From IMG/VR virus record IMGVR_UViG_3300037109_000101, positions 1-22,982 of that record: a DNA stretch of 22,982 bases; one strand, written 5' to 3'. This document shows, piece after piece, positions 5,429-21,439 of the stretch. Every line of letters starts with the position of its first letter. The first letter of the stretch is position 1. A program made the translations under genes and the position numbers. Source of the DNA: a virus. Under the pieces are notes generated by a model. That model ran no database searches, had not been told where the DNA came from, and saw only the letters and a program-made list of their open reading frames with translations.

Positions 5429-8400
5429 TTACTCCCATCCATTTTCGCGTGGTGAAGTTCCTGAATAAAATTCTGCTCCAAAATCCTGCATGGGTTCAAT
5501 ATGAAACTCCACGCCTCGGTATTTAAAATTCCCGTCAGCGGGAAGGACTTTATCGATAAGAATATCAAATCCTCTGCCGTAACATCCTTCGGGAGTAACG
5601 ATCTGCAACATTTTCCTGAACCAGTTATACCCGGCTGGAGCAATGGCAGTATCGACAACCTCAGTATAGGCCCCTGGACACTCGAAGCGGTCGCCGTCGG
5701 TAAATAAAACAATGGACAAACCCGCGGCATCAACCAAATCGCAAAAGAGCAGATATTCCGTGCATTCTCCCATCGTTCCGAATTCGGCATCGAGACCGAG
5801 ACGCCGGGATTTTACTTTCAGGTGGTACGGGTACGCCGTGCCGCCGTAATTATCCTGAAAAACTCCTGATTTTAGGAAATTGAATACCCGGTATACGTTA
5901 CTTTTATTTGAAAGGCCATAACAGACATTTCCATCCTTCGGAATCAACACAATCGGGTCGTTCTGATATGCTCCAGCCAGTCCAGGCGCCAGGGTATCCC
6001 GATATGAACCGATATACTTGCCGTCAGGCGAGGCATAAAACCCAAATATGGTCGGAATGGTCTGGCCAGGAACCGCTATTCTCCAAGAATCCTTATGCCA
6101 AAGTGAAAAAACCGTTTCCTTCCATTCTAACGAACGAGGAAGACCCGTGCCGGGATCAACGTGGGTATACCCGTCGTACCACAACTCTGAAAGTCGCATC
6201 GTCTCCAAGACCTCCACAGAGGCCCCTGGACGAAGTACGATCGGACATTTATGAGACAGTCCGAAAACAACCTGTTTAAGTTTCGGATGATCGGCAAAAG
6301 CAATCGTATTCGGGAAATCAATTCCAAGTTCATGGGAAATGGTACGCGGGATATTTGCCGGGTCATGATTGTCGAGAATGCCGATTTTTTGCTCTTTGCA
6401 GAAATAAAGGTCGCCCTGAAAAATGAAGATCCCGGTATCACGTTGACTGTCATTTGGTTCAAATACGATTTTTTGCGTAACGGCCTGGAAAAGCGAAGCG
6501 AATTTTTGAGGGAAAGCCGCATCCGAAGATGCTCCAACAGAATAAAGCCAGTATCCGCCGCCGGTCGAAAGCCAAAGTCTTTCCTGATCCCAACATGCAA
6601 AACGTCCGGCAGGAGAAACCTGAAAGCCGGTAGTATCCAGGGTATTGGTTTCGTAGGTAAGTTCGGCATCGGTCGTTAAGTCATGATAAATTAAATTCGG
6701 ATCAAAAACCCCGGTCAAAGCAAAATCCCGAAGATACCGTAACGAAAGACCGTCGGCCACGGTTTCGCTTGCGTCTCCCAGCGTTCTCCATACTCTGAAA
6801 TGTGTCGCTCCCTGAGCAATTGCATTTACATAATTCATCGGCATTGAAATGAGAGGAATTCCAACGGATGTCGAGCAGACCATAGTCAATGACTGGCGCT
6901 GGTCTACTTGTTCCATGCTTGAATCAATTGTCTCTTCAAAAACGCTGGTGTCAACGCCTAAAGACGTTCTTCGTCTTACGAATGTGCCGGTTATCGAGAA
7001 ATAATAACCACTGGTTATTCCATTAGATAATTTGGTCCAGATAATACCGTCTAAAGAACTATAAATTAAGTGTGAACCTGTTCCAAATATTACCCACATT
7101 TTATTGTTAAAAATCATAGAAGCAGAGTTGTAAGTATCCACAGGAAGCGCGTCGGTTCCCGACTCCGTCCAGGTAATGCCGTCCGAAGATGAATAGACCT
7201 TGCGAGTAGGAGCGGTAGTATATCCTCCAATGACCCACATCTTGTTATTAAAAACCACAGAAGCAGAGTTGTAAGTAGCCACAGGCAGAGCGTCAGTACC
7301 AGATTCAGTCCAGGTAATGCCGTCAGAAGAAGAATAAACCTTACGAACAGCGGTCGTGGTATATCCTCCAATCACCCACATTTTATTGTTAAAAATCACA
7401 GAAGCAGAGTGGTAAGTAGCCACGGGTAGCGCGTCGGTTCCCGATTCTGTCCAAGTAGTACCATCAGAAGAAGAATAAACCTTACGGGTGGCAATGCCTC
7501 CTGTGAGAAGCCCTCCAATCACCCACATTTTGTTATTAAAAATTAAAGAGGTATGCATACAAGTAGCCACGGGTAGCGCGTCGGTTCCCGATTCTGTCCA
7601 AGTAATTCCGTCAGAAGAAGAATAAACCTTACGGATGGCATTACCTCCGGTATATCCTCCAATCACCCACATCTTGTTATTAAAAACTAAAGAGGTATGA
7701 TAATAAGTAGCCACAGGTAACGCGTCGGTTCCCGATTCTGTCCAAGTAATTCCGTCAGAAGAAGAATAAACCTTACGGGTGGCAGAAGAGGTTGCTCCAC
7801 CAATTACCCACATCTTATTATTAAAAACCACAGAAGAGTGACCGTAAATATTTAAAGTCAAATTCGAAACATCCGCATCCGCCGTCATATACGGATTCAA
7901 CGACGGTACGCAATCAATCCCCCATGCCCGTAGTCCCCATGCGCTTCCCGTCCAATAAATAATCATGTTCCTTTTCAAATACGGAAACGTGTAATTCGTC
8001 GTGATTGCGGTATCGAACAAACAATAGATCGAACTATAAATTTTCAGCATGGAAAAATGAGCGGTCGCCGAAGCAAAAAGCGCGCTCATTAAAATCGTGC
8101 GGGTATGGTCGGTAATATTAACTACTTCGAGGTTGTAAACCGTGGCCGTGGTAACATTCTGCGTCCAATTGAACAGGTATTCTTTTCCATCCGGGCCGAT
8201 CATGTAAACTGCTTCCGGAGTATAGTTCGTGTGTTCGGAACCATACCCTCGCGCCGTGCCCTCCGTAAAAATATCGACAAGGGCCTCGCGCGGATCGAGC
8301 GGGTCGATAGGAGTGCAGTTCTCAAGCAGTTGGCATTCCCCTTGCTTGAGTGTAAGCGGATCATCGAGGGAGTTCATTCCCTGATAATATCCGCTTGTTC

Positions 8401-8434: not shown

Positions 8435-10165
8435 TTAAACATCGTCCGCATCAGGAAAGATGTCGATTTCGGAATCGTCCATCATGCCGATCCATCGACG
8501 AGACCGAACATCCGTTTGATTGCCGCCCGATAAAAATTCGTCGCGTACTTTCATAAGCACCTTGTCGAAATACGTATGCCAACCTTTTGCAATAGGAGCG
8601 TCAGGCCCGGAAGGAAGCTGTTCAAAGCCAAGCATGGACAACCCGGCGCGCATGATCTGATGTTCGTGATTATTATTTATCGGGATTTCGTCGGTAGTCG
8701 CCTCGATTTCAACGAAACTTCCTTTGTACGAAAGCATGATATAGTTGTCCGGCGAAACGATGACCGCAGAGGTTATGTCTGAACCGATACCCAACGCAGT
8801 TGACAATAAATGATAGTAATAAAGTTTTGTCGCCCGGCCTACGCTTGCGTCGTTTCCGGCAATTGCAAGCGTATTCCCTGCCTGGTTCCCGGCAGTTACG
8901 ACAAGGAGGTAATCTTTTAAATCGTCTTGATTGCGAGCCAATGACGACATCGTCCAAATGTAACCAATGCCAGCCACCGCCGTCTGTACGGTTCCATCGG
9001 AGGATATTGCTATTCCATGCCAGTTTTGTGATGTTGCTTTCTGCGTCCAGGTATTTCCTGAATCGGTCGAAACCCAAATGTATCCGCCGTAAACCGTTGC
9101 AGTTTGAATAACACCGTCGGAGGACATCGCTACAGCGTACCAATTCAACGATGTTGCTTTCTGCGTCCAGGTATTTCCTGAATCGGTCGAAACCCAGATG
9201 TACCCGCCGTTGACCACCGCCGTTTGCTTAACACCGTCGGAGGACATCGCTACAGCGTACCAATTCAACGATGTTGCTTTCTGCGTCCAGTTTGCTCCCG
9301 AATCCGTCGAAACCCAAATGTAACCAATGCCAGCCACCGCCGTCTGTACGGTTCCATCGGAGGATATTGCTATTCCACGCCAGTTTGGTGATGTTGCTTT
9401 CTGCGTCCAGGTATTTCCTGAATCGGTCGAAACCCAGATGTACCCGCCTTTGACCACCGCAGTTTGAATAACACCGTCGGAGGACATCGCTACAGCGTAC
9501 CAATTCAACGATGTTGCTTTCTGCGTCCAGGTATTTCCTGAATCGGTCGAAACCCAAATGTATCCGCCGTAAACCACCGCCGTTTGCTTAACACCGTCGG
9601 AGGACATCGCTACAGCGTACCAATTCAACGATGTTGCTTTCTGCGTCCAGGTATTTCCTGAATCGGTCGAAACCCAGATGTACCCGCCGTTGACCACCGC
9701 CGTTTGCTTAACACCGTCGGAGGACATCGCTACAGCGTACCAATTCAAACTTTGAGCAACCTGAATCCATGAATTATCCAAATTAGGAACGTTATTCGAA
9801 TTCAAATCGCAAATCGTAATTGAATCTATATTGGAATTTGAGAACACAAGCGGAACAATCGGCGCGGGATCTTCGTCAACGGTGGCGTTCGTGAGCATCA
9901 ATTTTCCGTCATCTTCAATAAACGGAAATTCGGAATTATAATCCGTGGGAGAAAACAACTTCTTTGCCTGCCGATAATTCGCAGGAGGGGTAATCCATTT
10001 TTTGTATTTTACGATTACCCCTTTTTGATAAGACAACTCCCTCAGAATTCTTTCACTCGATAATATCTCAAGGATATTATTCGCGGCAGAAATCCAGAAA
10101 GCGTCTCCGTATTTTTGCTTCAATATCGGCGGCAATTGTGCGACGTATGATGCAAGGGTAGGCAT
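8435..10165 (-). CDS. Connector/tail-adaptor-like protein with inserted BNR-type propeller
   Basis: 576 aa. Residues 1-130 (SYVAQLPPILKQKYGDAFWI near the N-terminus) and about 410-576 (including NQAGNTLAIAGNDASVGRAT) are unique sequence. Residues about 133-412 are seven tandem 40-residue BNR/Asp-box units. The position, between head genes and the nozzle-like gene, and the bipartite unique sequence suggest a head-tail adaptor or tail-tubular protein interrupted by a propeller; this is inference, as I recognise no defining motif in the flanks. The ATG at 10165 starts 4 bases after the previous stop with only a weak upstream GAG, so coupling is likely. The C-terminus is acidic (DDSEIDIFPDADDV), and the stop is immediately followed by the next ATG. 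Confidence 0.75.
   Translation of the reverse strand: MPTLASYVAQLPPILKQKYGDAFWISAANNILEILSSERILRELSYQKGVIVKYKKWITPPANYRQAKKLFSPTDYNSEFPFIEDDGKLMLTNATVDEDPAPIVPLVFSNSNIDSITICDLNSNNVPNLDNSWIQVAQSLNWYAVAMSSDGVKQTAVVNGGYIWVSTDSGNTWTQKATSLNWYAVAMSSDGVKQTAVVYGGYIWVSTDSGNTWTQKATSLNWYAVAMSSDGVIQTAVVKGGYIWVSTDSGNTWTQKATSPNWRGIAISSDGTVQTAVAGIGYIWVSTDSGANWTQKATSLNWYAVAMSSDGVKQTAVVNGGYIWVSTDSGNTWTQKATSLNWYAVAMSSDGVIQTATVYGGYIWVSTDSGNTWTQKATSQNWHGIAISSDGTVQTAVAGIGYIWTMSSLARNQDDLKDYLLVVTAGNQAGNTLAIAGNDASVGRATKLYYYHLLSTALGIGSDITSAVIVSPDNYIMLSYKGSFVEIEATTDEIPINNNHEHQIMRAGLSMLGFEQLPSGPDAPIAKGWHTYFDKVLMKVRDEFLSGGNQTDVRSRRWIGMMDDSEIDIFPDADDV
8950..9765 (-). repeat. Seven 120-bp tandem repeats encoding a BNR/Asp-box beta-propeller
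   Basis: The period is exactly 120 bases (40 codons). The unit consensus includes NWYAVAMSSDG, QTAVVxGGYIWVSTDSG and NTWTQKATS; STDSGNTW is a canonical Asp-box (S-x-D-x-G-x-T-W). From N- to C-terminus the units are A, A, A, B, A, A, B, where B has NW(R/H)GIAISSDG and QTAVAGIGYIW. Units 1 and 5 are identical over almost 90 bases (9661-9748 and 9181-9268). Differences among the A units concentrate in two codons: K or I after SSDGV, and N, Y or K before GGYIW. Seven blades is a usual closed-propeller number. Confidence 0.92.
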
Positions 10166-19559: not shown

Positions 19560-19690
19560 TGTATTGATTTATATATATTTATACAAATACATATACATAA
19601 TAATACATGATACACAATGCATATACGTATGCGCGTATGGGCGTATGGGCGCGTGCGGGTGCGCATGCGCGGGACGCGCGTGAGAGAGTC
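19560..19690. other. Alternating purine/pyrimidine tract (AT-rich passing into CG-rich)
   Basis: The stretch runs from TATATATATTTATAC through ATACATATAC-like steps into ATACGTATGCGCGTATG, two GGGCG(T/C) pieces and GCGCATGCGCGGGACGCGCG. Long alternating pyrimidine-purine DNA can melt (TA part) or adopt Z-DNA (CG/CA part). No gene is encoded. Confidence 0.6.
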
Positions 19691-19829: not shown

Positions 19830-19848
19830 AGGTGTTGTGTTGGAGGGG

Positions 19849-20084
19849 AAAATTGGGAGGTTTTTTGTGGAAAATACTGTTAAAGATGATAGTCAACCCT
19901 CAAAAGTTTTGAGGGTTGAAATGGAAAATTGGGAGGTTTTTTGTGGAAAATACTGTTAAAGATGATAGTCAACCCTCAAAAGTTTTGAGGGTTGAAATGG
20001 TAAATTGGGAGGTTTTTTGTGGAAAATACTGTTAAAGATGATAGTCAACCCTCAAAAGTTTTGAGGGTTGAAATGGAAAATTAA
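19849..20084 (+). repeat. Three 76-bp tandem units, each with a 27-base perfect hairpin
   Basis: Units start at 19849, 19925 and 20001, with an 8-base partial fourth at 20077. They are nearly identical (one A-to-T change at 20001). Each contains TCAACCCTCAAAA, one G, and the exact complement TTTTGAGGGTTGA, and also GGGAGG, six T and a GTG. As 76 is not a multiple of 3, this is not a protein repeat in one frame. Each GTG instead opens a separate short frame: 30 codons at 19867-19959 and 19943-20035, and 21 codons at 20019-20084. Translation is unproven. Confidence 0.9.
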
Positions 20085-20654: not shown

Positions 20655-20873
20655 ATGGAAGCGGAAAAGGAAAAGCAGTATACCTGCTTGCGCTGCGATC
20701 ATGGTTGGAATTCTCGATGTCCAGATCATGAGGACTTTAAAAAATGGAAGCCAATACTTTGCCCGGCATGTAAAAGTCCGTATTGGAATAAAGAAAAACG
20801 CACTTCAGAAAAGAGTGTTTCAGAAAAGAGTGTTTCAGAAAAACCATTAACGCCAGAGGAGGCCTTATCATGA
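20655..20873 (+). CDS. Small zinc-ribbon protein
   Basis: 72 aa, ATG at 20655 with GGGGAGG 4 bases upstream. Two CxxC pairs form a zinc ribbon: CLRC (residues 11-14) and CPAC (36-39) in a frame YTCLRCDHGW ... LCPACKSPYWNK, a pattern common in small bacterial and phage zinc-ribbon proteins. The last 20 residues are low-complexity (SEKSVSEKSVSEKP) from a 15-bp DNA repeat. First gene of the rightward operon; its stop overlaps the next ATG (ATGA). Probably a nucleic-acid or protein-binding regulator; exact role unknown. Confidence 0.8.
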   Translation: MEAEKEKQYTCLRCDHGWNSRCPDHEDFKKWKPILCPACKSPYWNKEKRTSEKSVSEKSVSEKPLTPEEALS

Positions 20874-21439
20874 ACGAACTTGATTTCGTCTATTCGGGAA
20901 AAAACGTCAGGGTTTTACAGATCAACGATGAACCATGGTGGATTGCAAGCGACGTTTGCGAGGTGTTAGGGCTGGAAAATATTACGATGGCACTTCAAAA
21001 ACTCGATAGTGATGAAAGGGACACCGTCGTTAAAAGCGAAGGTCAAAATGGTCCTGATCGCAATATCATCTCCGAATCCGGCCTTTATACGCTCATTATC
21101 CGCTCAAACAAGCCTGAAGCGCACGCTTTTCGGCGTTGGATCACGCACGACGTCTTACCGTCGATCAGAAAAACTGGGAAATTTGCGGTCAAAAACCCTG
21201 TACCAGAGGGAAAAGTCGTGAATTTATTCGATTTTAACGATGAACCGACAATGGTTCCGATGATTAAATCTAAGAGAAAAATTCCCGAAGTTTTCATCGC
21301 CGACGACTTTGTGAACCTTAGGCTTTCTGAATATGCCTTTAAGATGTTGCAGTACAAGCACGACGACCTATCTCAAAAAATGGGATTTAATCACACGTAT
21401 TCAGACGTGATTTTACATCTTATACGGAGGGACCTATGA
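20870..21439 (+). CDS. BRO-N domain protein (antirepressor-like)
   Basis: 189 aa, ATG at 20870 after GAGGAGG with a 7-base spacer. Residues 1-105 match the BRO-N (Bro family N-terminal) domain: VRVLQINDEPWWIASDVCEV, LGLENITMALQKLDSDERDT, ISESGLYTLIIRSNKPEAHA, FRRWITHDVLPSIRKTGKFA. In phages these DNA-binding domains occur in antirepressors and other regulators. The C-terminal 85 residues are different from the usual KilA/ANT partner: IADDFVNLRLSEYAFKMLQY followed by a helical tail, and I do not recognise them. It overlaps both neighbours by four bases, so it is part of one operon. Likely a switch regulator. Confidence 0.88.
   Translation: MNELDFVYSGKNVRVLQINDEPWWIASDVCEVLGLENITMALQKLDSDERDTVVKSEGQNGPDRNIISESGLYTLIIRSNKPEAHAFRRWITHDVLPSIRKTGKFAVKNPVPEGKVVNLFDFNDEPTMVPMIKSKRKIPEVFIADDFVNLRLSEYAFKMLQYKHDDLSQKMGFNHTYSDVILHLIRRDL

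Follow-up and report, generated by a model that had tools for sequence, protein, structure and literature searches.

A gene assembled from seven almost identical units raises the question of how it varies: by gaining and losing whole units, by change at a few codons, or by exchange of segments between units. We analysed such a gene in a 22,982-bp virus record, IMGVR_UViG_3300037109_000101, the whole of which is called the window here. The array consists of seven in-frame 40-codon (120-bp) Asp-box (BNR) units on the minus strand, at 8933-9772, with a spacing of exactly 40 residues. Two phages are used for comparison throughout, the strain L006 (IMGVR_UViG_3300049716_000091) and the sister phage L007 (IMGVR_UViG_3300037356_000039). 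The features are the following.

8435..10165, minus strand: propeller-array gene, an open reading frame of 576 aa; the neighbouring portal matches P22_portal, in P22 gene order
9773..10165, minus strand: N-terminal non-repeat domain, 131 aa; 72.8% nucleotide identity kept in L007
9653..9772, minus strand: unit 1, A type, with codons 21 and 27 encoding K and N; its first 8 codons have diverged
9533..9652, minus strand: unit 2, A type; the window has a K,Y hybrid, L006 the I,T,Y form
9576..9588, minus strand: converted tract of 13 bp; the window and L006 differ here by six substitutions, which make unit 2 the same as unit 6
9413..9532, minus strand: unit 3, A type; I,K
9293..9412, minus strand: unit 4, B type; P at codon 8, R at codon 11
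9173..9292, minus strand: unit 5, A type; K,N; codons 8-39 identical to unit 1
9053..9172, minus strand: unit 6, A type; I,T,Y
8933..9052, minus strand: unit 7, B type; Q at codon 8, H at codon 11; the C-terminal domain is fused on in place of the Asp-box end
8435..8932, minus strand: C-terminal non-repeat domain, 165 aa; 74.1% nucleotide identity kept in L007
5429..8434, minus strand: kelch gene, 1001 aa, adjoining the array gene; P22 gp10 hub position by gene order only

The first-pass annotation had recognized seven 120-bp units, although its limits (8950-9765) were slightly short, and the order it gave, A,A,A,B,A,A,B, holds in the coding direction. In TRF, the 120-bp period scores 1053 and a superperiod of 360 bp (94% match) scores 1311, values that exclude a chance origin of the array. 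With the exception of the start of unit 1, pairs of A units have 109-115 of 120 bases in common. The long identity described earlier between units 1 and 5 extends to every base of codons 8-39 (96 bp). The block duplication with gain or loss of one unit is also borne out, as units 2-4 are duplicated in units 5-7 with one A unit left over.

The genes are ordered TerL, portal, scaffold-like, capsid, two small genes, the propeller gene and the large kelch gene. This order matches that of P22 and the portal is of the P22 type, which puts the propeller gene in the head-tail adaptor position. Homology to P22 gp4 was not found (hhalign probability 0.1%), the N- and C-terminal domains have no PHROG matches, and no fibre, spike or baseplate domain was found within the window protein. 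In other viruses, related propellers lie behind Mtd_N and Ig domains (L035), before a Peptidase_S74 domain (L025) or beside a baseplate wedge gene (L021), and a Mu gp48-like baseplate protein (L016:7158-8648) carries a diverged Asp-box propeller between its N- and C-terminal parts. Based on gene order and these relatives, the protein is presumably located in the virion, and a ligand-binding role is plausible. The placement on a virion surface proposed earlier follows here from gene order and relatives, with no adaptor homology found, and is weakly supported.

Units 1-6 each close with STDSGNTW or STDSGANW, which conform to the SxDxGxTW motif, and four strands are predicted per unit. Pfam gives a BNR_6 match (E 5.5e-7, above its cut-off) and one borderline Tli3 match over the same BNR repeats. 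AlphaFold models of the seven-unit and three-unit proteins are of low confidence (pLDDT 34 and 31). A Foldseek search with the low-confidence model ranks Asp-box propellers first (Ycf48, E about 1e-8; also GH74 and sortilin), which is supportive but weak evidence for a propeller fold. Because the pLDDT is poor, we infer ring closure and the residue positions. Most likely, the seven units close into one seven-bladed beta-propeller; their number fits a closed propeller, and the three units of L007 could not close a ring alone.

Differences among the A units amount to 11 variable bases in eight codons (21, 23, 24, 25, 26, 27, 29 and 31), all inside 32 bp. Eight of the 11 codons from 21 to 31 vary, three changing the amino acid (21 K/I, 25 V/T and 27 N/Y/K) and five synonymously. 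The changes are linked in blocks, comprising codons 21 and 23, codons 24 and 25, and codons 26, 27, 29 and 31. Units 1/5, 2, 3 and 6 between them carry every one of the four possible pairings of the first and last blocks, which indicates exchange between units and is poorly explained by recurrent point mutation. Over codons 0-32, the two B units have exactly two base differences, at codons 8 (P/Q) and 11 (R/H); both change the amino acid and both had escaped the first-pass annotation. Site pairs with all four gametes occur within the array of the window (4) and within those of L015 (18), L035 (32) and L036 (5). Same-column comparisons of codons for the same residue find identical codons 77% of the time within the window array, as against 43% between arrays. 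Codons 21 and 27 had been singled out as two hotspots. They do vary, but as members of linked blocks among eight variable codons, so the pattern found is one of block exchange and not of codon-specific change.

The one near-identical strain found for comparison, L006, differs from the window over ~11.3 kb by 14 mismatches and one 8-bp deletion. Six of the substitutions form the tract in unit 2, where AAG CAA ACG GCG GTG in the window is ATT CAA ACT GCA ACG in L006, the sequence of unit 6; about 8e-11 such six-mismatch clusters are expected by chance. Units 2 and 6 of L006 are identical throughout their 120 bp, and its units 1 and 5 over codons 8-39. The L006 array keeps seven units and is a clean block duplication, (KN, ITY, IK, B)(KN, ITY, B). 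This points to the hybrid unit 2 of the window (K,Y) as the derived form. This tract is direct evidence of segment exchange with the unit number constant, and the idea that recombination between units alters the gene is supported, the replacement agreeing with unit 6 letter for letter.

The flanks of the L007 gene are 73-74% identical to the window in nucleotides, and its array has three units. Private codons are common to these units, a pattern that, read from the sequence, points to concerted evolution. The neighbouring kelch gene carries five near-identical units of 47-49 aa (7092-7836) in which the segments following GG and PVAT vary; the sister phage has TEAGTDALPVAT where the window has TESGTDALPVAT, which again suggests concerted evolution. 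Scans with the capsid, terminase and N- and C-terminal domains matched only L006 and L007, so that intermediate relatives are missing, and tblastn with the whole protein and the portal against 50,697 phage records gave no match. The repeats alone gave only weak matches, in Vibrio phages such as phiVC8. Matches in bacterial genomes (L010-L012) were rejected as phage relatives, being diverged propeller-type repeat proteins.

A pattern scan with AMSSDGxxQTAV identified related arrays in many unrelated viral contigs. Complete arrays of seven units are found in L015, L020/L025, L021, L024/L027 (counted by eye), L030, L031, L032, L036 (whose array starts at the contig end) and L037; L035 shows six. 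The two members of L020/L025, and likewise of L024/L027, do not differ at all (100% identity) over the stretches they share, and these pairs therefore give no strain comparison. Since complete arrays in other viruses almost always have seven units, the number looks constrained. Seven is the rule and the three units of L007 are the exception, either real or due to assembly loss. Comparison with related phages had been proposed as a check, and it shows altered unit-2 codons in L006 and three units in L007, while the count in L006 stays at seven. The gain or loss of blades without frameshift accordingly may have an example in L007, but as the main mode of variation it is weakly supported at best. 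Two of these viruses, L031 and L032 (IMGVR_UViG_3300004481_001142), have long frames with several successive Asp-box propeller arrays and a GGAYFGRVGITENQ-like segment before each.

The same columns vary across a set of 11 non-redundant viral arrays, namely codons 9, 11 and 12 and codons 26, 27 and 28, and the stretch AMSSDGxxQTA between the two patches is nearly invariant. When each array is compared with the mean of the rest, agreement is better in register than after any of the 39 circular shifts; the variability of the window, too, agrees best with the viral mean in register (Spearman 0.36). Mean normalized entropy in the other arrays is 0.13 at codon 21 and 0.75 at codon 27. At fourfold sites of the scaffold there are no differences in L015 (0/70) or L036 (0/81), whereas first and second positions of the patches differ at rates of 50% and 34%, respectively. 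In the window, patch variation (0.314) equals synonymous scaffold variation (0.317), and a claim of selection therefore rests on the relatives L015 and L036. The two patches are combined independently of each other from blade to blade in L015 and L035.

In Asp-box propellers the top face is functional and variable, and the Asp-box lies in loop 3-4 at the structural bottom (PMC2716378). By this anatomy and the predicted strands, codons 8-12 (the N-terminal end of strand 1) and 26-29 (loop 2-3) should lie on the functional top. The suggestion that the two hotspots line a ligand-binding face fits codon 27, whose patch varies in the 11 other viral arrays and whose loop 2-3 belongs to the top face (PMC2716378). 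It does not fit codon 21, which is nearly invariant elsewhere and whose place in the strand order is at the opposite, structural end.

We consider it probable that the array is an Asp-box propeller in a structural protein of a tailed phage, in which exchange between units re-patterns the binding face while the number of units stays constant. Exchange within the array, by gene conversion or double crossover, would keep the blade DNA nearly identical. As long as the units stay in register, short segments, including the surface patch at codon 27, could move from blade to blade with frame and blade number unaltered. Ring closure would explain why seven units are kept, and occasional unequal events may change their number, as to three in L007. 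With two variable patches on the top face, the likely effect is a re-patterned binding face, whose target is probably a glycan or protein of the host surface or the environment. We infer that the fold closes, that it is exposed on the virion and binds a ligand, and that the phage would benefit from the variation. A broader proposal is tentative, and we would sooner expect it to fail than to hold: that tailed phages widely use such a retroelement-free form of diversification, with propellers held to seven blades, two independent surface cassettes on each, and exchange among the blades of one gene that homogenizes the scaffold and re-deals the cassettes across a binding face.

The same array could have arisen from recent blade amplification followed by neutral homogenization, in a structural or decorative domain where conversion is a by-product of tandem identity and has no adaptive role. 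Propellers of highly repetitive blades have emerged repeatedly throughout life, also in viruses (PMC9218822), and the patch change in the window is no higher than the synonymous change. The window and L006 also differ in the copy number of an intergenic tandem repeat, so exchange at repeats may be general. Drift alone, however, is not expected to produce variable columns common to 11 arrays, nor patch change of 34-50% in L015 and L036 where synonymous change is zero. We regard this explanation as doubtful, although it deserves serious weight. As for the view taken in the first-pass annotation, that the array varies mainly by adding or dropping whole blades and that its two hotspots are codons 21 and 27, we find it improbable. 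The contrast of three units in L007 with seven in the window and the AAAB-AAB block structure are in its favour, but seven units are also found in L006 and, with few exceptions, in the complete arrays from other viruses, codon 21 hardly varies in other arrays, and the changes come as linked blocks that include synonymous sites.

Assembly from short reads, or mixing of strains, might instead have created both the unit 2 variant and the three units of L007. The source is metagenomic, three units are unusual for the family, and exact repeats inside the arrays (160 bp, the longest in that of the window, and 239 bp in L006) exceed a 150-base read. Yet the junctions that distinguish the strains are an 18-bp string present only in the window and an 81-bp string present only in L006, each of which fits inside one read. 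The longest exact repeat of the L007 gene is 68 bp, though identical units between may have been dropped. Such an artefact seems quite improbable to us. A diversity-generating retroelement (DGR), or other targeted mutagenesis that writes the variable codons, is by far the least credible source. DGRs resemble this system in that they vary residues of phage surface proteins while the scaffold stays fixed, and phage receptor-binding proteins are common DGR targets (PMC10743442). In the window array, by contrast, the six linked changes match an existing unit exactly, so that the donor is another blade of the same gene, and changes are not confined to adenines (GTG/ACG, GTC/GTT and CGT/CAT). An RVT_1 reverse transcriptase was not found in 10 of 11 records, which are partial (the window, L006, L007, L015, L036, L035, L025, L037, L030 and L031). 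The single match, G009:C1:89725-90453, is in the L021 record, a 208-kb phage contig with a seven-blade array. On the absence of the enzyme from these ten partial records and of an adenine-specific pattern, and on the unit-6 donor match, a DGR was rejected.

Exchange between blades that re-patterns a binding face, the reading we prefer, can be set against known propellers. Highly repetitive beta-propellers amplified from single blades have been described, in a data set with Asp-box and viral members (Pereira and Lupas 2022, PMC9218822), and amplification of near-identical blades is therefore already known. The window array is like them in its near-identical blades (above their 60% identity criterion), recent amplification and blade-level homology. 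What sets it apart is that the window and L006, two strains, differ by an exchange between blades that leaves the unit number as it was, and that variation falls in two patches common to viruses; the terms recombination and gene conversion do not occur in the main text of PMC9218822. With the Asp-box propellers of Quistgaard and Thirup (2009, PMC2716378), such as Ycf48, sortilin and GH74, the array shares an SxDxGxTW motif in each internal unit, units predicted to have four strands, and a variable loop 2-3. It differs in that its units are almost identical in DNA and are inserted in a protein of the phage virion module. Propellers have also been proposed as receptor-binding domains in phi11 gp45, PRD1 P2 and PhiKZ gp131 (PMC4901313). 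As here, these are propellers in phage virion proteins with a proposed binding role, that of PhiKZ gp131C being seven-bladed; the host proteins are different, the window gene is positioned differently, and near-identical blades are not reported in the available text of PMC4901313. Within the part of the literature covered, no account of blade exchange in phage proteins was found.

Among the known ways in which phages vary their receptor-binding surfaces are DGRs, invertible segments and point mutation. If real and common, blade exchange in tandem propellers would be a further, enzyme-free route, in which the fold sets the number of units and the DNA repeat supplies the variation.

Elsewhere in the window, positions 19847-20082 hold three 76-bp tandem repeats with a 27-nt palindrome in each; L006 apparently has ~2 fewer copies (alignment offset 151 bp) and also lacks one 8-bp unit at 19644-19651. 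A phage anti-repressor (Ant) gene is encoded on the plus strand at 20870-21439 (PHROG E 9e-41).
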